Source: Aquilaria yunnanensis
Lineage: Eukaryota; Streptophyta; Magnoliopsida; Malvales; Thymelaeaceae
Reading direction: 5' to 3'
Length of the DNA: 64,000 nt
Assembly (NCBI GenBank): GCA_039654915.1
Contig: CM077594.1
Location: 94,564,893-94,628,892, forward strand
Shown here one piece after another: positions 4,564 through 61,404 of this stretch. A program made the position numbers and the translations under genes. Each line of letters opens with the position of its first letter. The first letter of the stretch is position 1. The notes beneath the pieces are model-generated. The model did no database searches. It saw only the letters and a program-made list of their open reading frames with translations, and was not told where the DNA came from.

Positions 4564-4635
<72 letters not shown>
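4564..4635. repeat. (TA)n microsatellite inside LTR of element A
   Basis: About 35 uninterrupted TA dinucleotides. A long open frame across the preceding GC-rich block reads into it and is composition-driven. Confidence 0.95.
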
Positions 4636-4637
<2 letters not shown>

Positions 4638-5935: not shown

Positions 5936-6069
5936 TATATTATTTTGGTCATAAAATTGACATATGAGAATAACATGAGATTTTTGATTTGATATGTATT
6001 TATTTATTTATTTATTTAGAATAGTTTAATTTTAATTGTTGTAATGCATTAAATGTGTATCAAATTATT

Positions 6070-6450: not shown

Positions 6451-6726
6451 CGGAAGTAATAAAATTTTATATAAATTAATTTAAAAATCCACATCCGATT
6501 AATTCAGTTAAAATTTCTAGTTTGAAAATTAACTGAATATTTTCTAAAAGCAAAGCAAAACAAAATTAAAATCAACTAAGGTGCCAATTTTGGGCGCTAT
6601 AACAAAGTTGTTTTAGCGTAACCGTACTCCCGATCCCCGAACTCTCGCAGACCAATTTTAAGGTGACCAATCGACCTAAACATAAACAGATTGGTGGCGA
6701 CTCCAAGAAAACCTGACGTTGCCACA

Positions 6727-34804: not shown

Positions 34805-36917
34805 TGTGGCAACATGCGGGGTTTTCTGGAGTCGCCACCAATCGGTTTTCGCTCAGGTCGATTGGACACTTAAAATATGGTCTGCGAGAGTTCGGGAGTT
34901 CGGGAGTACGGTTACGCTAAAACAACTTTGTTATAGCGCTCAAAAATTGGTACCTTAGTTGATTTTAATTTTGTTTTGCTTGCTTTTAAATAAAATTCAG
35001 TTAATTTTCAAAACAGAAATTTTAACTGAATTAGTCGGATGTGGATTTTTAAATTAATATGGGCTTTAAAATCTTCGGTAATTAATTTATATAATTTTTT
35101 TACAAATTTGATATTTCCGAACCATGGACTCTGCCGAGTCACTGGACATGGAATTTGATGAAATTTTAATTAAACATTTTAATTAGTAAACAATCCATAT
35201 CATGAATTCTGCCGAATTATCAGAATATGGATTTTTATCCTGATATTTAATTTTATTTTAATTAAAAGTTTGTATATTTCTCCAAGCCATGAATCCTATC
35301 GGATCACCCGGACATGGATTTTAATTTAAAACTTATTGTTAATTATTTAGATTTTTAATTCTTATTATTTTTTTATTTAATTATTAATTTTGTCATAATT
35401 TTTATGAAATTTTAGATTTTTTTTATGATCTTAATGTTAAAAAAAAATTTCTTTCTTTTCTTTCTTTTTACTTCTTTCTTTTCTTTCTCTTTTTATTTTC
35501 TTATTCAATGAAAGATCTTTATTATTTATTTTTTAAGTAATTACTTAATTTATAAAGGAACCAAAAAAGTAATTTTTTAAATTATCTAATATCAAGATTC
35601 TTTATTTAATAAAGAAACTAAAGAGTTATATAATTTTCTAAAAAATCTTGACATTCATATATTTTATTTTATTTTTATTCTTTTGATTTGATAAAAGATG
35701 AACCAAAAAATAATTATTTAATTATTTAATATCAAGATTTTATTTATTTACTAAAGAAAACAAAGAGTTATATATTTTTCTAAAAATAATCTTGATATTC
35801 ATAGATTTTATTTTATTTTTGTTCTTTTTGTTTGATAAAATATTTTGAAATAGTTTTCTAGTTTATAAGTCTTAATATATATATATAATTGATAAGTTTA
35901 AAATATATTTAAAGTGAATTTAATTATTTTCTATTTATTTTTATTATCTTTATTTGAAATCATTTGGTTAAGATTTTTTTTGTTTAATAAAGGAACCAAA
36001 AAGTTATATTTTTTATTATTTTAAAATAAATAATTAAAATATTACTGGATAAAGAAATAAGTAAAATATTACCCAAAGTTTTTTTTTCTTTTTTTATTTA
36101 CTCCTTTATTCTTTTTACTGGATAAATAAAAATTTAAAGTAACTATAAAAAAAATTTAATTTTATTTATATACTTTATTTAAAAAAATATTTTTTCATTT
36201 TCCAAACCATGGATCCTGTCGGATCATTTGGACATGGAATTTAATTTAAATTTTTTTTTATTTAATTAATTATTAACTTTAATAATAATTTTTATTGGAT
36301 TTTATTATTATTTTTATATTTTTATTAAATTTTTAATTATCATTACTTTAAAGATATATTTGAAAAAGCATTGATTTTTATTTTTTGGAATTATTTAATT
36401 ATGTTTGTTTAATAATTTTAATAAAAGTGGAATAAAAGGTTAACTTTTTAAAGAAATGAAAAAAAATAAATAAAAATATGTGTTTCAAAATAATAAAGGA
36501 TGGGGATTTTTTTTTAAAAAGATTTTTTTGTTAGCACTAAAAATAAAAAATGGAATAAAGTTAATTATTAACAAAAAAAAATTCTTCTTTTAATTTGTTA
36601 TTATTTACTTATTTATTATTTTTATTTTTTTATGGCTAAAGGTGAAATAAGTAAAATGAGCTTAACCATCTACATAATTAAAATTTGCATAAATTAAGTA
36701 AATGAAAATTAAAGGAAAATAAAGTGGGGCTTTTTGACCATCGACTTAAAAATTGCAGAAATTAAATAACATATGCGAATAAATAAATAAATAAACAAAT
36801 AAAAAGCACATAAAGTAAATAAAGGAAAGTGAAAGGTCAATAAATAGTAAATAAAGTGGGGCTTTTTTGCCATCCACTTAAAAAATAAATAAATAGGAAG
36901 TATTACCTTCCATGAAC

Positions 36918-36921
<4 letters not shown>

Positions 36922-36979
<58 letters not shown>
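36922..36979. repeat. (AAT)n microsatellite in the solo LTR
   Basis: About 19 uninterrupted AAT/ATA repeats. Shorter runs of the same trinucleotide continue to 37090. Confidence 0.9.
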
Positions 36980-36981
<2 letters not shown>

Positions 36982-37548
36982 GTTAGTAAAGTTAGTAAAG
37001 TTAGTTGTTAATAATAATAATAATAATAATAAAATTTAGTAAAGTTAGTAATGTTAGTTGTTAGTAATTAGTCGTTAATAATAATAATAATAACAATCAA
37101 TAATAAATAAACAAGTAAATATAAAAGAGTTAGTAATTAGTTTTCTGCAAGGATAAAAGGAATGTTAGTGACTTGAATGAAAGAAAATAAGAAGATGAAG
37201 AGTTTAACAACGGTTTTACCCAGAAAATTAAAATTTTGAATCTCCTGGGACGAAAAACAGAGAAACGCAACGGGAAAATGGCAGGGGAGGTGGCTGGCGG
37301 CTGGCGCCGGCGGGATGGAGGGAGGTGGGCACGATGACGGTGCGACGGGAGGTGGCCGGCTTGCGGAGTGGAGGCGGCCCGAGCGACGGCAGCGGGAGAC
37401 CGCTAACGGAGCGGATAAAGAGAGGGAGAAGAAGGGAGGCTGAGAAGCGTGGAGCGACGGGACGGCGTGGACGACGACGGGCGGTGCGGCTGGAGGGAGA
37501 ATGGCGGTGGCTGTGGCGGTGTCGGCGGCGAGCAACGGCGAAAGGAGC

Positions 37549-37553
37549 GTCGG
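37549..37553. repeat. Target-site duplication of element M, left copy
   Basis: GTCGG directly before the 5' LTR, identical to 53921-53925 directly after the 3' LTR. Confidence 0.92.
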
Positions 37554-37629
37554 TGTTGACATCCAATTTCGTTCGGCCATTAAAAAAATTTTTCATTAAA
37601 AAATTAAATTAAATATTAATTCAAAAAAA

Positions 37630-37664
<35 letters not shown>

Positions 37665-40162
37665 TAAAAAATTTAATTAGTTTAAAATATATTTTTGTTT
37701 TGTGAAGATTTGATTTAAAAAGATATATATGGGTATATGTGTATGTTTGAAGTAAAAATTAAAACTCCATAAATGACAAAATTAAAAAGTTTGAGGTAAA
37801 AATGACAAAATTGAGAAGTTTCGGAAAAAATTGACAAATTCTGAAAGTTTCAGGAGCTTTGCGTAATTTTTCGCATCAATTTTGGGCCAGACGGACGTTT
37901 CTGGCCCAAATTGACAGAAAACGACAAAATTGTCAGAATCAGAAGCATCTGATACTTATCCAGAGGATAAGACACGTAAAGGACTGAAACTGTCATTTTA
38001 CCAATTTAAGAGATAAGTTTTGATTATTTTTATTATTTAATTAGGAACAGTTCAGCCAAACTTCCTCTATAAATAGGGGTCCAAATTTGATGCTGGACAG
38101 GAAAAAAGACAGAAAAAAATAGAACGAAAGCTTGGAGCTCCGTTTTAAAAAAAGGAAAAATTACAGTCTTAGCCCTTCAGCCTTTCCTTCTTTCTTCAGA
38201 AGAACATAAATTGTTTTTAGTTTTTTCTGCCCCCCTGCCGTTTATCACCGTTTCTCCTCTTTCTCTCACTCCGCCGTCGCCTCCGCCCGCCGCCGCCCAG
38301 TCGCCGTCGCTTCCCCCGCCGTCGCTGCGCCGTTACCCTTCCGGCCCGCCGCTCCGTCGCCCTCCGACCAGCGCCCTCGCCGCCCCTGCCGTCTCGCATC
38401 GCCGTCGCCCCTGCCGTCCCGCGTCGCCGTTGCGGCCGCCGTCGCCCTTCCGCCCCGCCGCCCCGTCGCCCTCCGTCCAGCACCGCCGTCGCCTTCTCTT
38501 CCTCCGGCGTGCCCCTCCTCCTTTCTCCTCCTTCTTTTTCTCTCCACACCGCCGACTGCCGCCGTCGTCCTGCCGTCTCTCGCCGCTGCGCCCAGCCGTC
38601 CCGCTGCCGTCGCCCCTCCGCCTTGCCGCCCCGTGTCCGTGCCGCCGCGCCAGCACCGCCAGCCCCACCCCTCCTCTTGCGTCGCGCTGCGTTTCGCGTT
38701 TCCAGAAATTCAAATTTCAATTACTAAAGGTACAACTCCCTTTTAGTCCTCTATCTTTTTAATTTATTTTACTTTGGTCACTAACCTTTTATTTTGATCT
38801 TGCAGAATTAATTACTAACTCTTTTAATTTTTACTTGTTTATTTATTTGTTTGTTATTGTTATTATTACTAACCCTTTTTTTTATTATTGTTATTAACTC
38901 ACTAACTTACTAACTTTACTAACCTTTTATTATTATTATTGTTACTAATTTACTAACCTTTTATTATTGTTATTATCATTATTAACATCTAACTTTTCTA
39001 ACTTTTGCTAACTTTTATAATTCATGGAAGGTTATACCTCCTATTTATTTATTTTTTTTAAGTGGATGGTCAAAAAGCCCCACTTTATTTATTTATTTAT
39101 TATCTTTTAATATTCCTTTATATGTTTACATGTGTTATTTTATTCATTTTTTTTATGTCTAAACTAAAAAAAAAACCTCCCCTTTACTTTACTTTATTTA
39201 ATTTTCCTTTATGCCAAAATTTTACTTCATGATAAAATTTATTTCACTTATTTAATAATAAATAAAATAAATAAGTAAATAATAAATAATTATAAATGAA
39301 AAAAAGAGAAGTTTTTATGTAAATAATTAACTTTCTTCATTTTTAAGGCTATCAAAAAAATCTTTTTCAAACAAAAATCCCCATCCTTCATTATTTCAAA
39401 TCTTCATTATTTTGAAACATCAATTTTATTTCTTTAAAAAAATTAACCTTTTATTAAAATTATTAAAAAATCATAATTGAATAATTCTAAAGATACAACA
39501 AAAAATCAATTCTGTTTTTTTTAAATATATTTTTAAAGTAATAATAATTAAAAATTCAAGAAAAATAATAAAATAATAATAAAATCCAATAAAAATTATG
39601 ACTAAAATTCATTAAATAAACAATTAATTAAAAATTTAATTTCTATATCCGGATGATCCGGCAGGATCCGCGGTTTAGAAAATATCAATTTTTTTGAAAT
39701 TGAATAAAAATAAATATAAAGATAAAAATCCATATTTTACGATATGGATTAAATTATTTAAAATTTCGTCAAATTCCGTGTCCGGGTGACTCGGCAGAGT
39801 CCATGGTTCGGAATTAAAACTTTCGTGTCCGGGTGACTCGGCAGAGTCCATGGTTCGGAAATATCAAATTTTTATACAAATTAATTACTAAATATTTTTA
39901 AACCGGTATTAATTTAAAAATTCACATCCGATTAATTCAGTTAAAATTTCTAGTTTGAAAATTAACTGAATATTTTTTTAAAGTAAAGCAAAACAAAATT
40001 GAAATCAACTAAGGTACCAATTTTTGGGCATTTTAACAAAGTTGTTTTAACGTAACCGTACTCCCGAATCCCCGAACTCTCGCAGACCAATTTTAAGGTG
40101 ACCAATCGACCTAGGTGAAACAGATTGGTGGCGACTCCCGAAAACGACCCGACGTTGCCACA
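37554..40162 (+). repeat. 5' LTR of element M (2609 bp)
   Basis: TGTTGACATCC...GTTGCCACA. It holds a TATA box at 38067-38076, a CCG-rich block (38220-38700), splice-like borders AAAGGTACAACT (38725) and CTTGCAGAATTAATTAC (38800), and stem-loop boxes at 39645-39860. Confidence 0.92.
38067..38076 (+). promoter_or_regulatory. TATA box in 5' LTR of element M
   Basis: CTATAAATAG within CTTCCTCTATAAATAGGGG. The same box is found in the 3' LTR (51802-51811) and in the LTR of element R (about 59290), followed by the presumed start of the R region. Confidence 0.75.
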
Positions 40163-41046: not shown

Positions 41047-43137
41047 ATGGCAGAACAAATCGAAGGACGTCTCATAAAGATAGAGTCCAAGATAGAAGGT
41101 ATGGCCGAACAAATAAGACAATTGATGGAGCTAATCAAGGGGAAAGCAATTCAAGTTCCCATCAAAGAAGCACAAGTTCAGCCACCCATGACAGAAAGAG
41201 AAATGCTTACTTTATTTGTTCAGACACTGAAGCACCCATATTATGACAAACTCATTGGCAATTCAGCAGCTAATTTCTCTGACGTCGTCATGTCTGGAGA
41301 AAGGATCGAGCATGGGATTAGGACCGGGAAGATTACCGAGTCCTTTAATGATCCTATGAAAAGAGAAGGACCATCTAGAAGAAAGGAAGACGAAGTACAA
41401 CAAATAGGACGCGGAAGAGAGATTCCCCTCGTAGGTACTGTGGCTACCGGGCCTCGCCTATCCTATTCTACCAATTGGCCCAACAATTATCCTGTCCACA
41501 GGCCTAATCAATTACAGCCACCTGTTCTGACCCCTCCAGTACCTGCACAAAGACAAAGAGAAGTCTTTGCGCCAATTCCTATGACTTACACTGAGTTGTA
41601 TCCAAAACTCATTAAAAGACAATTCATCTGTCCAATTCCTACAAAGCCATTCAAACCCCCATATCCAAGGTGGTATGACCCCAACATAACTTGCCCATAT
41701 CATGATGGCGTTACAGGCCATGGCCTGGAAAATTGCATAGCATTGAAACGTACAGTCCAACAATTAATCGAGTCAAAATGGTTGGACTTTTTCGATGAAC
41801 CAAACATCGCTCACAATCCATTGCCGCCTTATCAATCAAAACCAGTCAATGTAATAGAAGAACACTGGCCGATAAAGAAGTCAGTCAACGATATCATAAC
41901 CCCTCTTAAGCATGTATATTCATGCCTTCTGAAAGAAGGGGTTATCATCCGGAAGTCTTCTTTTAAACATGAAGAAGTCAAAGATGAGGACTGGTGTGAC
42001 TTTCATGATAGTAAAAGTCATTCTATCCAAGAATGCTCAGAATTCCGTGAAAGTCTACAAAGGCTCATGGACTCATCCCAACTTATCATTTTTACGTCGG
42101 ATAAAGATGATGATGTAAATGTGATCACTAAAGAACGGGAAGTCAATGCTACGCCAAAACCACTAGTTATACCAATTTCAAAATCTATTGTCAAGCCTTT
42201 AAGAACTCGAGTCCCGAGGTCATTCCTCTACAAATCAGACAAGGCTGTTCCATGGAGCCATGATTACACTTCCAACATCACATCAACTCCGTTAGAAGTT
42301 AGGAGTATGACTAGAAGTGGTCCATGTTACTCTCCAGAACAAATGTACAAGTTTCAACAAGATAAGAACGTCATAGACCCAACAAGTGAGCCTCTAGATA
42401 CAGATACATCCAAAGAGCAAGAGATGTCTCAAGAGGTGACAGATGAACAAACTACTGAGTTTCTCAAACTCATGAAGCAAAATGAGTACAGCACCGTGGA
42501 GCAGTTAAACCACCTGCCAACAAAGATCTCCATACTTTCACTACTCATAAGCTCTGATGCTCATCGAGAAACCCTAATCAAAGTCTTGAATAAGGCCTAT
42601 GTTGAGCCAGATATTTCAGTGAATAATTTTGACCACCTCGTCAACAACATCATCGCACAGAATCTCATCACATTCACTGACGATGAGATACTAGCAGAAG
42701 GAAGGGGTCACTCTAAGGCTCTATATATTTCGGTTAAATACAAAGATCGAACTATGACTAGAGTTATTGTTGATAATGGGTCAGCTCTAAACATAATGCC
42801 AATTGAGACCTTACACAAGTTTGGTATAGACTCATCATACCTCAACTACAGTCATATCACTATTCAAGCATTTGACAGGACGAATAGAAATGTCGTTGGA
42901 AAAATAGAGCTGCTAATAGAGATCGGCCCTTGTGTCTTTCATATCACATTCCAAGTTATGGACATTAATCCTTCTTATACTTGTCTGTTGGGAAAACCAT
43001 GGATTCATATGGCCGGAGCAATTCCCTCCTCATTACACCAAAAAATGAAATTCATTTTTGAAGGAAAGTTAATCACAGTCTTTGCTGGTGAAGACATTCT
43101 GCTATCATCCATATCAACGGTAGCAAAGACCAAGTAA
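41047..43137 (+). CDS. Gag-protease protein of element M (696 aa), N-terminally shortened gag
   Basis: Structural protein plus aspartic protease of a Tat-like Ty3/Gypsy element. Residues 1-37 look like a short coiled coil (IKIESKIEGMAEQIRQLMEL). Next comes only the C-terminal part of the gag domain (MTEREMLTLFVQTLKHPYYD, then GERIEHGIRTGKI). Two zinc-knuckle-like modules follow: CPYHDGVTGHGLENC at 216-230 and CDFHDSKSHSIQEC at 317-330, both C-x2-H-x4/5-H-x4-C. The protease lies at about 560-690, with the catalytic motif DNGSALNIMP (Asp at 576) and the flap and C-terminal LLGKPWIH. The frame has no defect and stops after the protease. The homologous frame in element R has the same shortened gag start, so the shortening preceded transposition. 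The missing gag N-terminus and pol imply mobilisation in trans. Confidence 0.85.
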   Translation: MAEQIEGRLIKIESKIEGMAEQIRQLMELIKGKAIQVPIKEAQVQPPMTEREMLTLFVQTLKHPYYDKLIGNSAANFSDVVMSGERIEHGIRTGKITESFNDPMKREGPSRRKEDEVQQIGRGREIPLVGTVATGPRLSYSTNWPNNYPVHRPNQLQPPVLTPPVPAQRQREVFAPIPMTYTELYPKLIKRQFICPIPTKPFKPPYPRWYDPNITCPYHDGVTGHGLENCIALKRTVQQLIESKWLDFFDEPNIAHNPLPPYQSKPVNVIEEHWPIKKSVNDIITPLKHVYSCLLKEGVIIRKSSFKHEEVKDEDWCDFHDSKSHSIQECSEFRESLQRLMDSSQLIIFTSDKDDDVNVITKEREVNATPKPLVIPISKSIVKPLRTRVPRSFLYKSDKAVPWSHDYTSNITSTPLEVRSMTRSGPCYSPEQMYKFQQDKNVIDPTSEPLDTDTSKEQEMSQEVTDEQTTEFLKLMKQNEYSTVEQLNHLPTKISILSLLISSDAHRETLIKVLNKAYVEPDISVNNFDHLVNNIIAQNLITFTDDEILAEGRGHSKALYISVKYKDRTMTRVIVDNGSALNIMPIETLHKFGIDSSYLNYSHITIQAFDRTNRNVVGKIELLIEIGPCVFHITFQVMDINPSYTCLLGKPWIHMAGAIPSSLHQKMKFIFEGKLITVFAGEDILLSSISTVAKTK

Positions 43138-44640: not shown

Positions 44641-45895
44641 TGCACAGTTTATGTCTTCGAGTTGGAAAGGGAAGAATGGCAGGATATTTTAATTAAAAAC
44701 AAAGACCGTAAATTACTTTGTCAAGCTTTGCAAATTGATGAAAGTTTTTCTTTAAGGCCAAACCATTATTCATTAATGTATGTAGACTTAAAAGTGAGGA
44801 GATAGCTTGAGTCTTTCTTTAATAAGATGTGATTCTTGTAAGAGAAATTTACGATCAAGTACCATCACAAAGGTCTAGAAATGCTCGACCTTCTGTTAAA
44901 TCAAAGGCGAGATGATACCTTTTATCCACATAAATACCATATTCAGGGGGGCAAAGTAGTCTCTACGAAGCGTAAGAGGAGTACTGCTAACAAAGAAGTT
45001 CAATAGACAAGGGGGCAAGTCTTATGGATCAAAACATGAGTTCAAGGAAGAGCAATCATTCAGATTATAACATGGGGATAAGTAAGTGTCGGCACGGTCA
45101 CAAGAAAAGGGGCAAAGCAGACATTGAAAGTAAAACCTTTGATGGTATCAAATCCATGACAATGGATGAGTACCCGAAAGAGATATAAATTATGAGGCGG
45201 GCCAATTTTAAAGAAATTGAGGCCAAAATTCAAGAACAAGTCAAAGAAAGGGGATTTTGAAAAGAGTTGGGCTTTTGAGGCAGTGAACAAAAGCTGGAAA
45301 GCATAAAGAGATTTAATGATAGCCCAAGAAGGCAATTATAAAAAGGATCCAGTAAAGCAAAGATATGAAGAACTAGATCACTCCAAAAAAAAAATAAAAA
45401 AATAAAATAAAAATAAAAATAAAAAAGAACCATCAATTACACATGCTTTGCATTCATGCATTTCACATCATGCATGCATGACTTTTACATGATAGGAATC
45501 AAATGGGAAACACATCCACCGCACCGTTACAGCAGTATAAGCTGAGATCTCAATAACATCAGCTCTTACCAATCTATCACTAGATGCACAGCTGATATAC
45601 TGTACCCAGCCTCATCAGCAATTCAAAGATAAAGTAGACAATATTGTCAAAAGCCTGGTAATCGATTCAATAATCGAGGTTACACCTGGATGGACAGAAT
45701 TGACGCCAGCTTAGCAGTATCCAAGATAAGAGATAGCTATGGTAAAAAATAAGGCGGACATTAAGAAATATTGTCGTTGAAAATTTGTCAAAAGCAGACA
45801 AAAGATTCAATAAGCAAGGACTGGATCGACGTCAGCTGGACGGAATATCAAAGATAAGAAATATCAATTACATCAAAATAAAGTAGGATCCACTT
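44641..45895 (+). other. Non-coding internal region of element M
   Basis: A frame at 44614-44805 lacks an ATG and has no recognisable domain. Poly-A-rich runs occur at 45385-45425, and an imperfect repeat of about 100 bp at 45620-45850 (ATATTGTC..AAAGC and GACG.CAGCT blocks). No gene called. Confidence 0.45.
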
Positions 45896-46004
45896 TTCCG
45901 GTTAAGCGGCGGATACGGTACTCCGTGACTCTCAAGTCGGTTCTCTCAGTTGCCCATAATAACTGATTCTTTCCTCTCTTCTTTCTTTTACTTCCCTCTA
46001 GAAA

Positions 46005-46577
46005 ATGGATCCTACTCTTTCTGTCTTACGAAAATATTTTCTTTCTCTCCCAATGAACATTCTTAAAAAGATCTACCAAGTTCGCTGTGAACAATTAAGA
46101 GTTCTGATGCACAAAGGAATCCCTGAAGATGTGCACAAAGGAATCCCTGAAGATGTGCGGTGGTTAATCGAAGCCAAGGTTCGTCTGGCAGGTGAAATCC
46201 CAGAGACATTTGTGTCTCACATGCCTAGTATAGGCAAAAGCTCTTATGCCAAAAAGCGAAGAGCGAAAAGGTTACAAGTCTGCCATAAATGTGGACGGTG
46301 GACTTGTAATACTAAATGTCGTTCTTTAGGAATGATCTCCGATAATCGAGAAGATAAAATACGATTCATCAAGAATGGCCTGAGTAAGGACTCATTGGAT
46401 GATATCCAATTGACTCTTGAGACGCATTCTTGTGGATCAGTGCAACGCGAACTTCTTGGTTTATGGAGCATTTTTCATGAAGAACGAGAACGATACAGTC
46501 CCGGGAATCTGACTGTAAATGACCCTGTTTGCCAGCTTGTAAGAAAACTGGATGGAAAGCAAATCCTCGACTCATAG
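46005..46577 (+). CDS. Small basic Cys-rich protein resembling betaflexivirus nucleic-acid-binding proteins, copy 1 (190 aa)
   Basis: Starts at ATGGATCC after a CT-rich leader. The N-terminal half is a helical-looking region (LPMNILKKIYQVRCEQLRVL). Then comes the core: GKSSYAKKRRAKRLQ, a strongly basic patch, directly followed by CHKCGRWTCNTKC (C-x2-C-x4-C-x3-C) and, about 15 residues on, DKIRFIKNGL. The order of a G-[KR]-S-x-[YF]-A-x-[KR]-R-R basic patch, a Cys cluster and a conserved [RK]-[IL]-R-F-[IV]-x-x-G is what I know from the 3'-proximal Cys-rich nucleic-acid-binding proteins of carla- and vitiviruses (Betaflexiviridae), several of which suppress RNA silencing. This is inferred from motif order only. 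An 8-codon tandem duplication (HKGIPEDV twice) is peculiar to this copy. The frame is intact. It could alternatively be a retroelement-specific zinc-finger protein of independent origin. Confidence 0.65.
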   Translation: MDPTLSVLRKYFLSLPMNILKKIYQVRCEQLRVLMHKGIPEDVHKGIPEDVRWLIEAKVRLAGEIPETFVSHMPSIGKSSYAKKRRAKRLQVCHKCGRWTCNTKCRSLGMISDNREDKIRFIKNGLSKDSLDDIQLTLETHSCGSVQRELLGLWSIFHEERERYSPGNLTVNDPVCQLVRKLDGKQILDS

Positions 46578-46738
46578 AAGCCGTTAATGCCGTTACTGGA
46601 CGTAAAGCCAGTGGAAGATGTGAGCCACAGTCACAATTACTATACATACAATTTGTCATATTTGGAAAATTTACATTTTCTTTTAACAATAATGTACCTA
46701 CTCCCATAAGTGTAATCGACACGCTATCCTTTCATCAC

Positions 46739-46746
46739 TATAAATG
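46739..46746 (+). promoter_or_regulatory. Possible TATA box before copy 2 of the virus-like gene
   Basis: CTATAAATG in ATCACTATAAATGCATG, about 115 bp upstream of the ATG at 46862. The corresponding place before copy 1 has no such box. Confidence 0.4.
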
Positions 46747-46861
46747 CATGTTTTTCTTTCCGGTTAAGCAGCAGATACGGTACTCTGTGATTCTCAAAGT
46801 CGGTTCAGTTTCCTACAATAACTGATTCATTTCCCTCATCCATTAAATTCTTCTTTCATCA

Positions 46862-47410
46862 ATGGATTCTACTCTTTCTACCCTGCAAAAGTACTTTCCT
46901 TCTCTCCCAATAAATGTTCTTAAAAAGATTTATCAAGCTAGATGTGAACGATTCAGAGTATTTATGCACAAAGGCATTCCTGATAATGTGCGGTGGCTAA
47001 TCGAAGCTAAGGTTCGTTCAGCTGGTGAAGTTCTAGAAGCGTTCTTTCCCCGTATGCCCGGCTTTGGTAAAAGCGCTTATGCCAAAAAAAGAAGAGTAAA
47101 GAGGCTAGGCGTTTGTCATAATTGTGGATGGTGGATTTGCGGCAATAAATGTCGTTCTCCAGGAGTGATCACCAGAAATAGTAATGATAGAATAAGATTC
47201 ATTAAGAATGGCTTGCGTAAGGAATCTCTAGAAGATATTCGAGAGATTCTTGAAGCGCATTCTTTCGGAATAGTGCAATTTGAGATTGTTGGATTATGGA
47301 TAATTCTCCAAAAAGAATGAGATCATTATAGTCTTGGGAATCTGACTTTAAACGACCCAGTTTGCCAGTTTGTGAGAAAACTGGATGGGATGCAAATCGC
47401 CGATTCATAG
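46862..47410 (+). CDS. Virus-like Cys-rich nucleic-acid-binding protein, copy 2 (open for 152 aa, then a premature stop)
   Basis: Same layout as copy 1: helical N-terminus (LPINVLKKIYQARCERFRVF), basic patch GKSAYAKKRRVKRLG, CHNCGWWICGNKC, then DRIRFIKNGL. The Cys spacing C-x2-C-x4-C-x3-C is kept although most neighbouring residues differ, which suggests selection on the core before the copies decayed. The frame ends at a TGA (47318-47320) where copy 1 has CGA (Arg). Homology continues without frameshift to a TAG at 47408-47410, so the last 30 or so residues are lost. The basic and Cys core lies well before the stop. Confidence 0.6.
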
Positions 47411-47439
47411 AAGGCATTGAAGCCGTTACTGGATGCAAA

Positions 47440-47790
47440 ATCAGTGGAAGACGTGGACCAAAGTCACGATTACTGTACATGCTAGCTGTCACTTTTAAAA
47501 TTATCCTCCCAATAATGTACCCACTCATGACATGAGGTACAGTTATGACTACTGAATATAGTTGCCACTTTTGAAATTTTCCTTCTCATCCGACAATCAC
47601 GTGCCTACTCCTGACGTAAGCTATAGTCACGACTACTGTGTATGCCGTTGCTTTTGAAATTTTCCTCCACTTTTGACGATAATGTACCCATTCCTGACAT
47701 AAGTCATAGTCACGATTAATATGTATAACTGTCACTTTTGAAAATTTTCTCCTCTTCCGAAAATAATATATCCATTCTTGAAAATAAAAT
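47440..47790 (+). promoter_or_regulatory. Four tandem units of about 83 bp upstream of the LOG-like gene
   Basis: Each unit has a GTCACGATTACTGT-type start, CTTTTGAAATTTTCCTCC and an end of the form AATGTACCCACTCATGAC. The junctions read TGACATGAG, TGACGTAAG and TGACATAAG; TGACGTAA is the core of as-1/TGA-bZIP sites. The array lies immediately upstream of a TATA box, so an enhancer-like role is plausible but inferred. Confidence 0.55.
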
Positions 47791-47804
47791 TATCTCTTTA
47801 TCTC

Positions 47805-47815
47805 TATAAATATAT
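47805..47815 (+). promoter_or_regulatory. Probable TATA box of the LOG-like gene
   Basis: CTATAAATATA, 38 bp before the ATG at 47853, followed by a CT-rich stretch suitable for initiation. The leader would be very short. Confidence 0.55.
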
Positions 47816-47852
47816 CCTCTTTTCTCCTTCTCTCACAAGGGTGAGGATAGGA

Positions 47853-48482
47853 ATGGAGAAAACCCCAACTCGTAAATCCTGAAGTATTTGTGTATTTTCT
47901 GGGGCTTTTCCTGGAAAAGATGAAGAGTATTTAAAGGCAGCCAACCATTTGGGTAGAGTATTAGCTGAGCGAAAAATACATTTAGTTTATGGAGGAGGTA
48001 GTGTCGGATTAATGGGAGGTGTAGCATCAGCAGCATCTCTAGGAGGAAGCCAAGTTTTGGGCATCATCCCTAGACCTTTGAAATTTGTTTCTGGGGGCAC
48101 GATTGGAGAAGAATTAGTGTTTAGAAATTTGCAAGAGCATGTGTTACAAATGCTTTTAAATGCTGATGCTTTTATCGCTCTACCAGGTGGTTTTGGTACA
48201 TTAGGAGAAGTCTTCCAAATTGCTTCCATGGCCCAACTTAATTTGCATAAGAAACCCATTGGGCTTTTGAATGTTAACAATTTCTTTACAGGTCTGATAG
48301 CTTTTATGGATTATGCTATGCAGAAGAATTTCATATCAAGAGTGGCACAACGAATCATAATATCCGCAACAACTGCTGAAGAATTGCTAGATAAAATACA
48401 AGCTTTTGTTCCTGAACCAGATCCAGCAATGATTCAGATAGACTGGACACGACAGTCTTTCCTAACTAGTTCACTCCTATAA
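47853..48482 (+). pseudogene. LOG: LOG-like (cytokinin riboside 5'-monophosphate phosphoribohydrolase) gene, intronless, with an early stop
   Basis: LOG enzymes release free cytokinin bases from their ribotides. The frame from 47853 begins MEKTPTRKS and meets TGA at 47880-47882. After it, the same frame is open for 199 codons to 48482: ICVFSGAFPGKDEEYLKAAN, HLVYGGGSVGLMGGV, ADAFIALPGGFGTLGEVFQI, KPIGLLNV and so on. Length and order cover the whole LOG fold, including the PGGxGTxxE motif. The Arg-Lys pair expected about 14 residues before PGG reads His-Val (QEHVLQM), so catalysis is doubtful even without the stop. Host LOG genes have several introns; none is present here, consistent with capture of a cDNA. 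The next in-frame ATG lies after the first glycine-rich loop begins, so no good downstream start exists. It sits between the virus-like pair and the hairpin array of element M. Confidence 0.82.
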
Positions 48483-49029
48483 TGGTCCTCTACTCACCCT
48501 GTTAAAGTATTGTGGAAGAAAGAAGCGATCTGATCTGTTTTTCTTGTCCTTTAGTTTTATTATCAGCATTTTCTTTCGTGTTTCAGTTTTTCTTTTCAGG
48601 GAATTTCTTTTTTTATAAAATAGTTTCGTTCATGCTGATATTAAAACCACAGGACAACGCCTTTAGGTTGGAATGGCTGAGTAAAGAGTAATTTTTATTG
48701 CTCTTGAGACGCATCCTATTAGGTCTACTAGGCATGACATTTTGGGGTAGTTAAGCTTCAACCTTATTTGGATGACATATCTCACAAGGGAATCTATATT
48801 TACTGAAGAAAATATTAGATGAACCTTGGATATTGATTCCAAACATCCGTTCCCTTTACATAATTTGTTAGTGTTATTGTCATCATCAAGATTCACTCAT
48901 CTTATCGAAGTCTAAATTTCTGCACTCACCTATTATGAAAATTCACACTTCCGAATAGAACATTTCAACTTCGATTGTCTGAGGTACTTAAAAAAGAGGA
49001 AAGAGTTTTTCTCCACAATCAATTTCAAT
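48483..49029 (+). other. 3' untranslated internal region of element M
   Basis: Collinear with positions 1-500 of element A. No gene called; the antisense 77-codon frame at 48663-48896 is discussed under rejected items. Confidence 0.7.
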
Positions 49030-51190
49030 TTCAACGAGGTTCTAAGGACGGAACCTTTGCCTCGTAATCAATCAATTTCAATTTCAACGAGGTTCTAAGG
49101 ACGAAACCTTTGCCTCGTAATCAATCAATTTCAATTTCAACGAGGTTCTGAGGACGGAGCCTTTGCCTCGTAATCAATCAATTTCAATTTCAACGAGGTT
49201 CTAAGGACGGAACCTTTGCCTCGTAATCAATCAATTTCAATTTCAACGAGGTTCTAAGGACGGAGCCTTTGCCTCGTAATTAATCAATTTCAACGAGGTT
49301 CTAAGGACGGAACCTTTGCCTCGTAACCAATCAATTAATCAATTTCAATTTCAACGAGGTTCTAAGGACAGAACCTTTGCCTCGTAATCATCAATTTTTC
49401 TTAAACGATAAGAGAGTTCTTATCGCAGAGGTTCTAAGGTAGGGCACTTAACCTCAAACTTGCAACGATAGGAGAGTTCCTATCGTCGAGGTTCTAAGGA
49501 GAGTTCCTTAAACCTCAAACAATCAATCATCAATTTTTCTTAAACGATAAGAGAGTTCTTATCGCAGAGGTTCTAAGGTAGGGCCCTTAACCTCAAACTT
49601 GCAACGATAGGAGAGTTCCTATCGTCGAGGTTCTAAGGAGAGTTCCTTAAACCTCAAACAATCAATCATCAATTTTTCTTCAAACGATAAGAGAGTTCTT
49701 ATCGCAGAGGTTCTAAGGTAGGGCCCTTAACCTCAAACTTGCAACGATAGGAGAGTTCCTATCGTCGAGGTTCTAAGGAGAGTTCCTTAAACTCAAACAA
49801 TCAATCAATCAGTCCATCTTACAACGATAGGAGCTTTCCTATCGTAGAGGTTCTAAGGACCTTTCCTTAACCTCAAACAATCAATCAACCAGTCCATCTT
49901 ACAACGATAGGAGCTTTCCCATCGTAAAGGTTCTAAGGACCTTTCCTTAACCTCAAACAATCAATCAACCAGTCCATCTTACAACGATAGGAGCTTTCTT
50001 ATCGTAGAGGTTCTAAGGACCTTTCCTTAACCTCAAACAATCAATCAACCAGTCCATCTTACAACGATAGGAGCTTTCCTATCGTAGAGGTTCTAAGGAC
50101 CTTTCCTTAAACCTCAAACAATCAATCAAGCAGTCCATCTTACAACGATAGGAGCTTTCCTATCGTAGAGGTTCTAAGGACCTTTCCTTAAACCTCAAAC
50201 AATCAATCAACCAGTCCATCTTACAACGATAGGAGCTTTCCTATCGTAGAGGTTCTAAGGACCTTTCCTTAACCTCAAACAATCAATCAACCAGTCCATC
50301 TTACAACGATAGGAGCTTTCCTATAGTAGAGGTTCTAAGGACCTTTCCTTAACCGCAAACAATCAATCAACCAGTCCATCTTACAACGATAGGAGTTTTC
50401 CTATCGTAGAGGTTCTAAGGACCTTTCCTTAACCTCAAACAATCAATCAATCAGTCCATCTTACAACGATAGGAGCTTTCCTATCGTAGAGGTTCTAAGG
50501 ACCTTTCCTTAAACCTCAAACAATCAATCAAGCAGTCCATCTTACAACGATAGGAGCTTTCCTATCGTAGAGGTTCTAAGGACCTTTCCTTAAACCTCAA
50601 ACAATCAATCAAGCAGTCCATCTTACAACGATAGGAGCTTTCCTATCGTAAAGGTTCTAAGGACCTTTCCTTAACCTCAAACAATCAATCAATCAGTCCA
50701 TCTTACAACGATAGGAGCTTTCCTATCGTAGAGGTTCTAAGGACCTTTCCTTAAACCTCAAACAATCAATCAACCAGCCCATCTTACAATGATAGGAGCT
50801 TTCCTATCGTAGAGGTTCTAAGGTAGGACCCTTAACCTCAAACTTTCAACGATAGGAGAGTTCCTATCGTCGAGGCTTTAAGGAGAGTTCCCTAAACCTC
50901 AAACAATCAATCATCAATTTTTCTTTAAACGATAAGAGAGTTCTTATCGCAGAGGTTCTAAGGTAGGGCCCTTAACCTCAAACTTTCAACGATAGAAGAG
51001 TTCTTATCGCAGAGGTTCTAAGGTAGGGTCCTTAACCTCAAACTTGCAACGATAGGAGAGTTCCTATCGTCAAGGTTCAAAGGAGAGTTCCTTAACCTCA
51101 ACCAACCAATCAATTATCAAATTTTCCCTTCAACGATAGGAGAGTTCCTATCGCAGATGTTTTTAAAGAGGATTCCATATCCTCATAATT
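49030..51190 (+). repeat. Tandem hairpin array of element M, four successive blocks
   Basis: Block 1 (49030-49390): about seven 50-60 bp units with CGAGG..AAGGACGGAACCTT..CCTCG stems. Block 2 (49390-49800): compound units alternating CGATAAGA/TCTTATCG and CGATAGGA/TCCTATCG stems. Block 3 (49805-50820): about 13 units of about 75 bp with CGATAGGA-GCTT-TCCTATCG and GAGGTT..AAGG/CCTT..AACCTC. Block 4 (50820-51160): mixed units like element A. Unit types are shared with the right end of the array of element A, but their numbers and order differ. Confidence 0.93.
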
Positions 51191-51289: not shown

Positions 51290-51364
51290 TGTTGACACCC
51301 AATTTCGTCCGGCCATTAAAAAAATTTTTCATTAAAAAATTAAATTAAATATTAATTAAAAAAA

Positions 51365-51399
<35 letters not shown>

Positions 51400-53920
51400 T
51401 AAAAAATTTAATTAGTTTAAAATATATTTTTGTTTTGTGAAGATTTGATTTAAAAAGATATATATGGGTATATGTGTATGTTTGAAGTAAAAATTAAAAC
51501 TCCATAAATGACAAAATTAAAAAGTTTGAGGTAGAAATGACAAAATTGAGAAGTTTCGGGAAAAATTGACAAATTCTGAAAGTTTCAGGAGCTTTGCGTA
51601 ATTTTTTGCATCAATTTTGGGCCAGACGGACGTTTCTGGCCCAAATTGACAGAAAACGACAAAATTGTCAGAATCAGAAGCTTCTGATACTTATCCAAAG
51701 GATAAGAAACGTAAAGGACTGAAACTGTCATTTTACCAATTTAAGAGATAAGTTTTGATTATTTTTATTATTTAATTAGGAACAGTTCAGCCAAACTTCC
51801 TCTATAAATAGGGGTCCAAATTTGATGCCGGACAGGAAAAAAGACAGAAAAAAATAGAAAGAAAGCTTGGAGCTCCGTTTTAAGAAAAGGAAAAATTACA
51901 GCCTTAGCCCTTCAGCCTCTCCTTCTTTCTTCAGAAGAACCTAAATTTTTTTTAATTTTTTCTGCCCCCCTGCCGTTTATCACCGTTTCTCCTCTTTCTC
52001 TCACTCCGCCGTCGCCTCCGCCAGCCGCCGCCCAGTCTCCGTCGCTTCCCCCGCCGTCGCCGCCGCCGTTACCCTTCCGTCCCGCCGCTCCGTCGCCCTC
52101 CGACCAGCGCCCTCGCCGCCCCTGCCGTCTCGCATTGCCGTCGCCCCTGCCGTCCCGCGTCGCCGTCGCCGCCGCCGTTGCCCTTCCGCCCCGCCGCCCC
52201 GTCGCCCTCCGCCCAGCACCGCCGTCGCCCCCACGCCGCCGTCTCCTTCTCTTCCTCCGGCCTGCCCCTCCTCCTTTCTCCTCCTTCTTTTTCTCTCCAC
52301 GCCGCCGGCTGCCGCCGTCATCCTGCCGTCTCTCGCCGCTGCGCCCAACCGTCCCTCCGCCGTCGCCCCTCCGCCTTGCCGCTCCTCGTCCGTGCCGCCG
52401 CACCAGCGCTGCCAGCCCCACCCCTCCTCTCGCGTCGCGCTGCGTTTCGCGTTTCCAGAAATTCAAATTTCAATTACTAAGGGTACAACTCCCTTTTAGT
52501 CCTCTATCTTTTCAATTTATTTCACTTTGGTCACTAATCTTTTATTTTGATCTTGCAGAATTAATTACTAACTCTTTTAATTTTTACTTGTTTATTTATT
52601 TGTTTATTATTGTTATTATTACTAACCCCTTTTTTTTTATTATTGTTATTAACTCACTAACTTACTAACTTTACTAACCTTTTATTATTATTATTGTTAC
52701 TAATTTAGTAACTTTTTATTATTGTTATTATCATTATTAACATCTAACTTTTCTAACTTTTGCTAACTTTTATAATTCATGGAAGGTTATACCTCCTATT
52801 TATTTATTTTTTTTAAGTGGATGGTCAAAAAGCCCCACTTTATTTATTTATTTATTATCTTTTAATATTCCTTTATATGTTTACATGTGTTATTTTATGC
52901 ATTTTTTTATGTCTAAACTAAAAAAAAAACCTCCCCTTTACTTTACTTTATTTAATTTTCCTTTATGCCAAAATTTTACTTCATGATAAAATTTATTTCA
53001 CTTATTTAATAATAAATAAAATAAATAAGTAAATAATAACTAATTATAAATGAAAAAAAAAAGAGAAGTTTTTATGTGAATAATTAACTTTCTTCATTTT
53101 TAAGGCTATCAAAAAAATCTTTTTCAAACAAAAATCCCCATCCTTCATTATTTCAAATCTTCATTATTTTGAAACATCAATTTTTATTTCTTTAAAAAAA
53201 TTAACCTTTTATTAAAATTATTAAAAAATCATAATTGAATAATTCTAAAGATACAACAAAAAATCAATTCTGTTTTTTTTAAATATATTTTTAAAGTAAT
53301 AATAATTAAAAATTCAAGAAAAATAATAAAATAATAATAAAATCAAATAAAAATTATGACTAAAATTCATTAAATAAACAATTAATTAAAAATTTAATTT
53401 CCATATCCGGATGATCCGGCAGGATCCACGGTTTGGAAAATATCAATTTTTTTTAAATTGAATAAAAATAAATATAAAGATAAAAATCCATATTTTACGA
53501 TATGGATTAAATTATTTAAAATTTCGTCAAATTTCGTGTCCGGGTGACTCGGCAGAGTCCATGGTTCGGAATTAAAACTTCCGTGTCCGGGTGACTCGGC
53601 AGAGTCCATGGTTCGGAAATATCAAATTTTTATACAAATTAATTACTAAAGATTTTTAAACCGGTTTTAATTTAAAAATCCACATCCGATTAATTCAGTT
53701 AAAATTTCTAGTTTGAAAATTAACTGAATATTTTTTTAAAGCAAAGCAAAACAAAATTGAAATCAACTAAGGTACCAATTTTTGGGCGTTTTAACAAAGT
53801 TGTTTTAACGTAACCGTATTCCCGAATCCCCGAACTCTCGCAGATCAATTTTAAGGTGACCAATCGACCTAGGTGAAACAGATTGGTGGCGACTCCCGAA
53901 AACGACCCGACGTTGCCACA
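51290..53920 (+). repeat. 3' LTR of element M (2631 bp)
   Basis: TGTTGACACCC...GTTGCCACA, collinear with the 5' LTR along its whole length. The CCG-rich block (51960-52450) contains the clearest indels between the two LTRs. TATA box at 51802-51811; stem-loop boxes at 53395-53620. Confidence 0.92.
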
Positions 53921-53925
53921 GTCGG
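53921..53925. repeat. Target-site duplication of element M, right copy
   Basis: GTCGG, identical to 37549-37553. The reverse solo LTR resumes after it. Confidence 0.92.
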
Positions 53926-54753
53926 GAAGTGAGAGAGAGGAGAGAAACGGGATAGACGGCAGGGAGGGAGGGGGGACTAAAAAAATTTAGGTTTTCTGGG
54001 GAGGAAGAGAAGAGGGCCAGGGACCTAGGCTGTAATTTTTCCTTTTTTCAAAACGGAGCTCTAAACTTGATTTATTTTTTTCTCCTCCTTTCTTTACAGA
54101 ATTGGACCCTTATTTATAGGGAAAGGAGTACTGGACTGTTCATAATTAAAAAATAATTAAAATCAAACTTTGGGGATGTTCCTGAAACTTCTGATTGAGA
54201 CAATTTTGTCTTTTTCTGTCAATTTGGGCCAGAAGTCTGGCCCAAAATTCATGTGACAAACTACCAAATGCTCCTGGAACTTTCATATTTTGTCAAAATT
54301 TCCCAAAACTTCTTAATTTTGTCATTTTTACCCCAAACTTTTCAATTTTATTTGTTTGTTTGCTTTTTTTTTTTATGGAGTTTTCTTTTGTAATTCCTAC
54401 ATACATACATACACACATATATTATTTTTAACTAAACCCCTATAAAACAAAATATATTTTAAACTAATTAATTAAAAATTTTTTTAGTAATAATAATTAA
54501 TTAGTTAATAATAATAGTTTTTTAATTAATTTTAATTTCTTGAATTTTAATTTCTTTGGATATACACACATAGATATTAACTTAACAAAATGCCCCTTCC
54601 CCAAAACTATTTAATTTAATTCTCTCTTTGTATAATTAATTAATAATAATTTTTATATAATTATTATTTTTTAATTTTTAATTAATTTTTTTTAATTTTT
54701 TTTAATTATTATTTTTTAAAAAAGAAGGGGTCGGACGAAATTGAGTGTCAACA

Positions 54754-58794: not shown

Positions 58795-59744
58795 TGTTGA
58801 CACCCAATTTCGTCCGACCATAAAAAAATTTTAAAAGAAATTAAATAAAAGAAATTAAATAAAAAATTATTATTTTTATTATTATTATTATTACTAAAAA
58901 TTTTAATTAGCTTAAAATACATTTTTGTTTTGTGAATATTTGATTTAAAATGATATATGTGTGCATTTGAAAGAAAAAAAGAAAACTCCAAAAAATGGCA
59001 AAATTTAAAAGTTTGAGGTAAAAATGACAAAATTAAGAAGTTTTGGGAAAAATTGACAAATTCTAAAAGTTCCAGGAGCATTTGGTAGTTTGTCACATAA
59101 AATTTTGAGCCTGCCGACGTTTCTGGCCCAAATTGACAGAAAACGACAAAATTGTCAAAATCAGAAGCTTCAGGAACTTATCCAGAGGCTGAGAGACGTA
59201 AAGGACTAAAATTGTCATTTTACCAATTTAAAAGATAAGTTTGAAATTTTTTTATTAATTTATCCATCAACAGTTCAGCCAAACTTCCTCTATAAATAGC
59301 CACCCAAATTTTGTGCTGAACACAGAGAAAAATAGAAAGAAAAGCTTAGAGCTCCGTTTTTAAAATAGAAAAAATTACAGCCTTAGTCCCTAGCTCTCCT
59401 TCCTTTCCTCAGAAAATCTCAAAACTTTTCATTTTGACGATTAAGCCATCTTCTTCCCCCGTCGCGCGTCCTCTGTTTCCGTTTCTCAGAATTCAGAATT
59501 TAAAATCAAGGGTACAACTCTCATTTAATCCTTCATCTTTTCAATTTCTTTCACTTTGGTCACTAACTTTGTATTTTATTCTTGCAGAATTAATTACTAA
59601 CCCTTTTAATTTTTACTTGTTTGTTTATTATTTGTTTATTACTAACCCCTTTTTTTTATTATTGTTATTAACTTACTAACAACTAACTTTTAATACTATT
59701 ATTGTTACTAACCTTTTAATTTTTGCATTATTACTAACTTTTAT

Positions 59745-60175
59745 AATTGTTGTTAACAATTAATTAACTTTTATTATTGTTGTTAATTAATTAATTTAAT
59801 TAACTTGGCTAACTTTTATTATTGTTGTTAATTAATTAATTTAATTAACTTGGCTAGCTTTTTATTATTGTTGTTAATTAATTAATTTAATTAATTTGGC
59901 TAACTTTTTATTTATTGTTGTTAATTAATTTAATTAATTTGGCTAACTTTTTATTTATTGTTGTTAATTAATTTAATTAATTTGGCTAACTTTTTATTAT
60001 TGTTGTTAATTAATTAATTTAATTAACTTGGCTAACTTTTTACTGTTGTTAATTAATTAATTTAATTAACTTGGCTAACTTTTTATTATTGTTGTTAATT
60101 AATTAATTTAATTAACTTGACTAACTTTTTATTATTGTTGTTTAACAATTAATTTAATTAACTTTGCTAACATTT
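59745..60175 (+). repeat. Tandem repeats of about 48 bp in the LTR of element R
   Basis: About nine units of the type TTGTTGTTAATTAATT followed by AATTAACTTGGCTAACTTTT, not present as an array in the LTRs of M. Confidence 0.85.
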
Positions 60176-60589
60176 ATTATTATTTTTAAAGTGGATGGCC
60201 AAAAAGCCCCACTTTATTATTATTAATTTTTTTTTTCTTTATATAATTTTTTTATTTAATTCACCTTTACCCTTTACTAATTAATAAATAAATGAAAATT
60301 AAAAGAAGATTATTTTGTAATTAATTATTAAGGCTAATAAAAATCATTTTTAAAAAGCCAATTATTTTTATTTTTATATACATGTTTTTAATTCTTTAAA
60401 GATAACAAAAAGTTAAAATTAATTTTAATAGTTATTTTTATCCAGTAAAAATAATAAAAAAATAAAAATAAAACCTGTTTAAAAAAAAAATACATGAAAA
60501 TTAAGACTTTATATTTTACTGATTTATTTAAAATATAACTTTTAAATCCACTAAAATAATAAATATTTTTCATTAAACAAGAAAACTAA

Positions 60590-60790
60590 AAGAAAACTAA
60601 AACAAGATAAGAAAAAGATAAGAAAGACAAGAAAAAGAAAAGAAAAGAAAGATAAGAAAAAGATAAGAAAGATAAGAAAAAGAAAAGAAAGAAAAGAAAG
60701 AAAAGAAAGGAAAGATTAAATAAAAAAGAAAAGAAAAATATAAGAAAGAAAAGAGAGAAAAGAAAAGAAAGAAAATAAAAAATAAAATTT
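60590..60790 (+). repeat. Purine-rich AAGAAA/GATAAG microsatellite region
   Basis: Low-complexity GAAAAGAAAG and GATAAGAAAAA repeats within the LTR. Confidence 0.85.
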
Positions 60791-61386
60791 TTTTATCTAA
60801 AAATTCTATAACAAAAAGAATTACGAATTAGTAATTAAACTAATAATTAATTCCATAAAAGTAATAATTATATAACTAACAATAAATTAAATTTAATTTC
60901 CATATCCGGATGATCCGTCAGGATCTACGGTTTGGAAAATATCAAACTTTTTAAAATAAATAAATTAAATAAAAAGATAAAAAAATCCATATTTTTACAA
61001 TATGGATAAAATTGTTTAAAATTTCACCAAATTCCGTGTCCAAATGACTCGGCAGAGTCCATGGTTCGGAATCAAAATCTTCCGTGTCCAAATGACTCGG
61101 CAGAGTCCATGGTTCGGAAGTATAAAATTTTATACAAATTAACTTAAAAATCCACATTTCGACTAATTCAGTTAAAATCTCTAAATTAACTGAAAATTAT
61201 TTAAAAGCAAAGTAAAACAAAATTAAAATCAACTAAGGTGCCAATTTTGGGCGCTATAACAATATTGTTTTAGCGTAACCGTACTCCCGATCCCCGAACT
61301 CTCGCAGACCAATTTTAAGGTGACCAATCGACCTAAGAAAAAAACTGATTGGTGGCGACTCCAGAAAACCCGACGTTGCCACAGCT

Positions 61387-61404
61387 TGGCGACTCCACTG
61401 GGGA
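61387..61404 (+). other. Primer-binding site of element R
   Basis: TGGCGACTCCACTGGGGA, 3 bp after the LTR. The decamer TGGCGACTCC also occurs inside the LTR about 30 bp upstream. Confidence 0.65.

Follow-up and report, generated by a model that had tools for sequence, protein, structure and literature searches.

Here we describe a long terminal repeat (LTR) retrotransposon from Aquilaria yunnanensis, found in a 64,000-nucleotide stretch of contig CM077594.1 (the window). The element has no polymerase (pol) gene. It carries two genes for Cys-rich nucleic-acid-binding proteins (NABPs) of a type known from flexiviruses, followed by a frame of the LONELY GUY (LOG) type. We consider it probable that the window holds a decayed copy, with two NABPs, of an abundant and recently active pol-less LTR family, and that the accessory cassette of this family aids transposition. 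The typical cassette of the family reads NABP-A, NABP-B, NABP-C, LOG. It is abundant, keeps its order and its open frames, has evolved under purifying selection, has a TATA box for each gene after the first and sits in at least one recently inserted element. Its NABPs are homologous to the viral proteins.

Plant retrotransposons are restrained by RNA silencing, and to our knowledge few are known to counter it with a protein. VANC of the VANDAL transposons is an anti-silencing protein encoded by a mobile element. VANDAL elements, however, are DNA transposons and their protein is unrelated and experimentally tested. The cassette described here is under selection and present in high copy number; it brings together a homologue of viral silencing suppressors and a hormone-enzyme fold that has been remodelled, and offers a testable case. 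It poses the question of the origin of the flexivirus Cys-rich gene. It also offers a non-autonomous element that has retained accessory genes and lost its replication genes.

Structure of the window element

The content of the window marks it as plant nuclear DNA. The element is bounded by a 5' LTR (37554..40162) and a 3' LTR (51290..53920) and lies on the plus strand, as do all of its features given here. The LTRs are 96.4% identical and differ at 63 of 2607 compared sites, a Kimura two-parameter (K2P) distance of 0.0246. The target-site duplication (TSD) GTCGG was read directly on both sides (37549..37553 and 53921..53925). Paired LTRs and a 5-bp TSD identify an LTR retrotransposon, and the initial annotation of this DNA had described it as complete in these respects.

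An open gag-protease frame of 696 aa (41047..43137), whose retropepsin-like Pfam matches fall short of the curated cut-off, is not followed by pol. No pol frame was found between the LTRs, nor any match there to the pol of L002, a pol-bearing relative described below. The window element thus has no reverse transcriptase, RNase H or integrase of its own, and no match to the L002 pol was found in any of 20 further loci fetched from the genome or in L031 and L032, the stretches upstream of two copies. Because pol is absent in the copies examined, the family is non-autonomous.

The cassette opens with the NABP1 leader (45895..46004; CCGGTTAAGCGGCGGATACGGTACTCCGTGACTC...), which aligns with 46757-46861 and with L002; the 160 nt ahead of the start contain no TATAAAT. 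NABP1 (46005..46577) is an open, Pfam-matched class A frame of 190 aa. It contains an in-frame 24-nt tandem duplication that does not occur in the class A copies of the 20 fetched loci. NABP2 (46862..47410), of class C, has a TATAAAT box at 46739..46745. It is interrupted by a premature stop at 47318-47320 after 152 codons, and the remaining frame extends to 47410. The LOG frame (47853..48482) has its TATAAAT box at 47805..47811 and is broken by a TGA at codon 10 (47880-47882). The two tandem Cys-rich frames of the initial annotation (46005-46577 and 46862-47320) both match Pfam. The initial annotation had also placed the cassette where pol would usually lie. Indeed no pol is present here, but in L002, which has pol, the NABP lies directly downstream of it. 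A tandem-repeat tract (48963..51180) occupies the 3' region.

Copies of the cassette in the genome

The genome (842 Mb, 345 contigs) was searched with NABP1, LOG and P0002, and the best 150 of 7,655, 3,641 and 8,237 candidates were scored, respectively. All 150 matched in each search. Stops were absent from 148 of the NABP candidates and from 149 of the LOG candidates, a proportion biased upward because the scored rows are the best ones. More than 100 of the 150 scored LOG copies share a bit score of 411.8; they are probably near-identical proteins from a recent burst.

Twenty loci were fetched in list order from the 150 NABP places and were thus selected for holding NABP-A. Each held at least one further NABP; 17 loci had three NABPs, two had four and one had two. 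LOG stood behind the NABPs, in the same order and on the same strand, in 19 of the 20, and LTR-like DNA was found downstream of the cassette in 16. Over a span reaching 1.5 kb upstream and 8 kb downstream, none of the 20 loci matched the L002 pol. When sampling began from LOG, all nine loci other than the window had a same-strand NABP upstream (open in six, frame-shifted in three). With the further NABP in every locus, LOG in all but one, and order and strand constant, the arrangement is beyond chance. The cassette belongs to a multicopy element, as the initial annotation had supposed, and is present in many copies.

NABP classes A, B and C were assigned by the nearest reference, the references being 76-82% identical to one another. 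In the fetched loci, 182-aa NABP frames were open in 19/20 copies of class A, 16/23 of class B and 17/18 of class C, and LOG was open in 15/19. The frames are thus kept open and are not equally disrupted. Since most fetched copies are open, the window copy, with only NABP1 free of stops, is among the worse ones.

An LTR pair around the cassette was read in two elements beyond the window element. In the element of L032 and L026 the two LTRs agree at all 2487 sites, and a 5-bp repeat flanks the element. In the second, whose 3' LTR is truncated where the fetched stretch ends, the LTRs differ at one of 2116 sites. L031 and L032 each contain an LTR and a shortened gag, open over 398 and 279 codons in the two stretches; pol is absent from both.

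Selection on the cassette genes

Variants were split into those in at least two copies, which are mostly carried by moving lineages, and singletons, which mostly arose after insertion. If copies did nothing but decay once inserted, neutral variants would be expected. The ratio of non-synonymous to synonymous polymorphism (pN/pS) for shared and singleton variants was 0.25 and 0.82 in NABP-B, 0.24 and 0.78 in NABP-C, and 0.13 and 0.56 in LOG. Pooled over these three genes, shared variants comprise 76 non-synonymous and 119 synonymous changes and singletons 109 and 47; the Fisher p of 9e-9 is a guide only, because variants counted as independent may be linked. L012 was dropped from the LOG alignment for an in-frame deletion, and the window NABP1 from class A.

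The shared ratios stayed low in further checks, although the singleton ratios were not always near 1. Without the window copy the shared and singleton ratios were 0.18 and 0.90 in class C and 0.13 and 0.49 in LOG; without L011, L021 and L025 as well, LOG gave 0.04 and 0.32. Two subgroups of class B gave 0.14 and 0.39, and 0.24 and 0.55. The low shared ratios against the higher singleton ratios point to selection during element movement: the cassette proteins were under purifying selection while the elements moved. The initial annotation had named two outcomes that would refute its reading: a cassette confined to one element copy, or frames equally disrupted in all copies with dN/dS near 1. Neither holds, and the shared-variant ratios are well under 1.

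Low dN/dS is also seen between NABPs. By the Nei-Gojobori method (NG86), dN and dS are 0.20 and 0.81 between NABP1 and NABP2, 0.19 and 0.92 between NABP1 and the L002 NABP, and 0.28 and 0.99 between NABP2 and the L002 NABP. The dN of the Yang-Nielsen method (YN00) agreed in two of these three pairs.

Promoters and leader

The 160 nt ahead of the start contain a TATAAAT box in 23/23 class B copies, 19/19 class C copies and 20/20 LOG copies, and in 0/21 class A copies. The background frequency of the motif in the rest of these 21 loci is 0.078 per 160 nt. Since the copies share ancestry, the counts do not represent independent events; the box nevertheless recurs ahead of three different genes. 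The initial annotation had credited each frame with plausible upstream elements, which holds for NABP2 and LOG but not for NABP1.

In the window, class A begins behind the leader that it has in common with L002; in the latter, a tract resembling a splice acceptor (tttctctgcag) precedes the NABP. Class A is probably read from the LTR transcript, perhaps via splicing, and the other cassette genes would be read from their own promoters. A strict leader pattern matched 8 of 63 NABPs, and the leader is claimed only where it was aligned. Three of three leader sequences had no excess RNA stability (z 0.09, 0.34 and -0.45), and Rfam gave no match at E values up to 0.1.

The NABPs and their relatives

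NABP1 and NABP2 match PF05515 (4.9e-7 and 5.7e-6) and PF01623 (1.3e-6 and 2.5e-4) above the curated cut-offs. These are the Pfam families Viral_NABP / Carla_C4 of flexivirus Cys-rich nucleic-acid-binding proteins. At E<=0.01 the two families match 64/65 and 63/65 of the aligned members, Viral_NABP being found in 64/65. A protein search with NABP1 gave 290 homologues at E<=1, of which 120 were listed. The Cys4 finger CxxCx4Cx3C is present in 104 of the 120 and the basic motif [KR][KR]RAK in 97. The element proteins thus have the basic stretch followed by a four-Cys finger seen in the NABPs of carlaviruses, allexiviruses, mandariviruses and vitiviruses. Unlike the viral proteins, which are the product of a 3'-proximal gene of a flexivirus genome, they are encoded in tandem in an LTR element. 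They are mostly about 182 aa long (exactly so in 58 of the 120 listed), and further conserved parts flank the finger. In a Foldseek search of viral proteins (BFVD), flexivirus silencing suppressors and NABPs top the list. Homology to the flexivirus proteins, which the initial annotation had suggested, is supported by Pfam and weakly by fold.

Among the matches listed, the named hosts of NABP relatives are Populus, Rhamnella, Xanthoceras and Orobanche; shorter NABP-like proteins, found with a shortened query, come from Parasponia and Striga. We take the named hosts to include both rosids and asterids. Scans of viral_contigs gave no NABP. The shortened query, aimed at viral NABPs, matched 460 proteins, and none of the 120 listed was viral by name. 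No NABP was found in the plasmid and phage collections, and a search of the PDB gave only three unconvincing matches (E 0.04 or worse).

Viral relatives suppress silencing in assays (PMC12172455, PMC3689765). The same sources describe the relative p12 of chrysanthemum virus B (CVB) as a transcription factor that induces hyperplasia; p12 failed to suppress locally induced silencing, according to PMC3689765. It is plausible that the element NABPs block silencing, as the initial annotation had proposed from the viral proteins.

About 70 nt past the NABP stop (window 46578-46650; L002:2348-2415) are conserved in frame among NABP1, NABP2 and L002. In the relative P0050 the C-terminus is extended by a sequence similar to this stretch and ends in NLSLSL. 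Readthrough of the stop was considered, and the stretch was rejected as coding on the evidence of synonymous to non-synonymous codon changes past the stop of 4:8, 4:8 and 5:10.

The LOG-like protein

The window frame matches PF03641 from 48012 onward (6e-29), so the LOG-like frame of the initial annotation is present, but broken in this copy. Its relatives have PF03641/TIGR00730, the catalytic Arg and Glu, and the PGGxGTxxE motif of the LONELY GUY phosphoribohydrolases. Residues were counted in 117 of 120 listed relatives (P0122, P0128 and P0173 were omitted for length), with roles taken from PMC4979012. The catalytic residues are kept, Arg99 in 110/117 and Glu122 in 114/117. Both are present in L013, a copy of the window's own lineage; in the window copy, residue 99 is His.

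The adenine/prenyl pocket of a cytokinin-activating LOG, in contrast, is not kept. Lys100 is replaced by M, I or L in 115/117 relatives and retained in one, and Glu125 is replaced by Q or H in 110/117 and retained in two. Other pocket residues are retained to varying degrees (His97 in 58, Met96 in 86 and Trp129 in 114 of the 117), and the omitted P0122 and P0173 retain Lys100. In the window's lineage the set Met96, His97, Lys100, Glu125, Trp129 reads L, Q, V, Q, M. In CgLOG, Lys100 contributes to the adenine site and, together with Glu125, to the prenyl site, which was deduced by superposition (PMC4979012). Alanine changes at AMP-binding or catalytic residues nearly abolished activity there, with one exception. 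The scores against the NCBIfam cytokinin-LOG equivalog NF058542 (96.4 and 122.7 bits) lie below its cut-off of 300 bits, a weak indication since the library is for prokaryote annotation and no plant LOG served as control. It is doubtful that the element protein activates cytokinin, and the initial annotation, which assumed this of LOG, is not upheld as it stood.

Many relatives carry a distinct tail. LxLxL lies within the last 12 residues in 97 of 102 relatives of 215-220 aa, with two occurrences elsewhere in 20,469 positions. Among the listed proteins P0121-P0240, relatives from Populus, Reevesia, Paulownia and other plants end in sequences such as KKRKLDLSLRL, both basic and LxLxL. Relatives are numerous in Reevesia and occur also in Paulownia, Populus and Diplodiscus, among the matches listed. 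The tail is not found in Arabidopsis LOG3 or LOG8, the host LOGs checked. LxLxL is an ERF-associated amphiphilic repression (EAR) motif, which is found in pathogen effectors that bind TOPLESS. An EAR-like function of the tail may be proposed by analogy. Scanning viral_contigs gave one distant LOG-like match (L001, 28%).

Pol-bearing and fused relatives

L002 is a contig of 3,330 bases with a pol frame at 104-1594 (rve, Integrase_H2C2) and an open NABP at 1799-2347. From its motifs we take the pol to be of Athila type. The contig is filed under a Candidatus Nomurabacteria metagenome-assembled genome (MAG); it is likely plant DNA that contaminates this record, and is treated here as such. In the Rhamnella gene model P0069, an NABP is fused to a segment that shares 70% identity with the end of the L002 pol. 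A second Rhamnella model, P0114, joins an NABP to LOG; a fresh Pfam scan of it at E<=0.01 gave the LOG domain only, and its NABP part rests on a precomputed PF01623 match and on BLAST. Among contigs of at least 2 kb, three sizes (2128, 4511 and 8723) are common to the NABP and LOG lists, with 0.18 expected. This suggests that NABP and LOG lie on the same contigs in other plants.

The A. yunnanensis genome has 27,147 candidate places similar to the L002 pol, of which 86 were scored. All 15 at 64-72% identity contain stops. Many at about 62% identity sit in open frames of 1,809 aa, and these are elements that could provide pol in trans. No pol-like place was noticed by eye beside a listed NABP, a comparison that was not computed and in which both lists are partial.

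Discussion

A pol-less family must borrow reverse transcriptase and integrase. We favour the reading that its cassette aids transposition, in which the genes would be expressed as separate transcripts. The NABPs would be RNA-binding or nuclear zinc-finger proteins that blunt RNA silencing, alter host transcription where the element is transcribed, or both; alternatively, they may act on the element RNA. The LOG-like protein may have an altered nucleotide substrate or be a binding protein, and in other lineages it could act via the EAR-like tail. Together, the NABPs and LOG would make their carrier elements transpose more. Selection on a gene in a pol-less element would need cis-preference, or cells that express few copies.

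A broader proposal is possible but rather unlikely in our estimate. An old, selected cassette of NABP and neofunctionalised LOG would be a virus-like module for host control in LTR elements of rosids and asterids. It would combine a zinc-finger suppressor or transcription factor with a LOG of remodelled pocket whose basic LxLxL tail recruits co-repressors of the TOPLESS type. Here the module would have outlived pol, with pol-less elements spreading by host control, and flexiviruses may have taken their Cys-rich gene from this pool.

Several observations weigh against the favoured reading or its parts. A recent burst leaves many copies open without selection, and only the shared-variant test addresses this. 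In that test the neutral yardstick is not clean, as singleton pN/pS is below 1 in the class B subgroups and in LOG. The class A values (0.06 shared, 0.29 singleton) are biased because the NABP1 query picked the loci. All stops are singletons save one, the TGA at LOG codon 10 common to the window and L029; either a broken LOG moved on or a CGA-to-TGA change recurred. Class B is heterogeneous, with eight copies within 92% of the reference and 15 further away, some almost as near to C, and it is broken in 7/23. One fetched locus, L018, has no LOG, and none was found in the 983 bases past the NABP of L002. The AlphaFold2 model of the NABP is of low confidence (mean pLDDT 64.5), and its Foldseek E-values are all 0.017 or worse. 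The LOG of the window's lineage has changes at Met96, His97, Glu121 and Trp129 beyond those at Lys100 and Glu125, and it lacks the LxLxL tail (WTRQSFPTSSLP).

The NABP might instead serve the element itself, in RNA chaperoning, packaging or nuclear export, as a gag-like or Rev-like helper and not a silencing suppressor. Its basic region and Cys4 finger would suit this role, as would the shortened gag of the two upstream stretches. The viral relatives, on the other hand, include suppressors that were assayed as such (PMC12172455 and PMC3689765), and the paired LOG is left unexplained. We regard the helper role as a real but lesser possibility.

About as tentative is the view that genes flowed from retrotransposon to virus, the flexivirus Cys-rich gene being a captured accessory gene. 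The plant NABP family is large, its hosts presumably span rosids and asterids, and the viral proteins in the fold list belong to several flexivirus genera. Against this, neither viral_contigs nor the 120 listed proteins yielded a viral NABP with which a tree could be drawn.

That the cassette is passive cargo, a viral and a host gene acquired by chance and carried as decaying passengers, is improbable. Stops in two of the three window frames and the LOG stop common to L029 speak for it, and other LTR elements are known to have taken up foreign domains (PMC9289625). It is largely refuted by the shared-variant test, in which pN/pS is 0.13-0.25 with singletons higher. Low dN/dS between NABP paralogues and relatives in several plant families also stand against it. 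Host genes or independent RNA-virus endogenizations lying beside unrelated LTRs by coincidence can be dismissed: plant genomes do hold endogenized RNA-virus genes (PMC3136472), but the constant order and strand of the fetched copies already refute this, and the LTR-like DNA behind 16 of 20 cassettes and the LTR pairs around two further ones also speak against it.

LOG has been met in retrotransposons before. Steinbauerova et al. (2011) reportedly described LOG-like frames in Athila-like elements. The initial annotation knew of no described family with this pairing; this stands for the NABP and for the pairing, of which no report was found, but not for LOG in LTR elements. Section 12 of PMC9289625 restates the Athila-like frames and notes YgdH in LTR consensuses of Citrus and Populus. 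Athila-like Ty3/gypsy elements with a LOGL4/YgdH frame are likewise LTR elements with a LOG homologue as accessory gene. In contrast, the family described here has no pol, two to four viral-type NABPs ahead of LOG and a TATA box for each later gene. The element LOG relatives also differ from LONELY GUY enzymes in their replaced Lys100 and Glu125, their scores below the NCBIfam cut-off and, in other lineages, the basic LxLxL tail. Ty3/gypsy elements of orchids that carry an m6A demethylase domain (PMC9289625) resemble the present family as LTR elements with a conserved acquired domain; the gene there is different and the domain single.

The main text of PMC9289625 does not contain the terms 'nucleic acid binding', 'carlavirus' or 'silencing suppress'. 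Literature searches confined to open-licence papers, judged by title and abstract opening, gave no report of an NABP in LTR elements or of the NABP-LOG pairing, and one may exist outside them. When endogenous RNA viruses of plants were surveyed in 2011, the plus-strand viruses were represented only by a betaflexivirus replicase, in cucumber (PMC3136472). The observation made in the initial annotation is confirmed, and its interpretation is partly supported.

Related elements in the window

A tRNA scan of the window gave none. LTR-like DNA in minus orientation lies on both sides of the window element (34805-37361 and 53928-54740), and the element therefore appears to be nested within an inverted relative. 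Window positions 1-6726 are the 3' half of a second related element. Its first 470 positions are 92% identical to 48491-48955 and are followed by a tandem-repeat tract and LTR pieces; any LOG would fall just outside the window. Positions 58795-64000 are the 5' half of a third related element, with an LTR start 82% and a gag stretch 94% identical, truncated at the window end.

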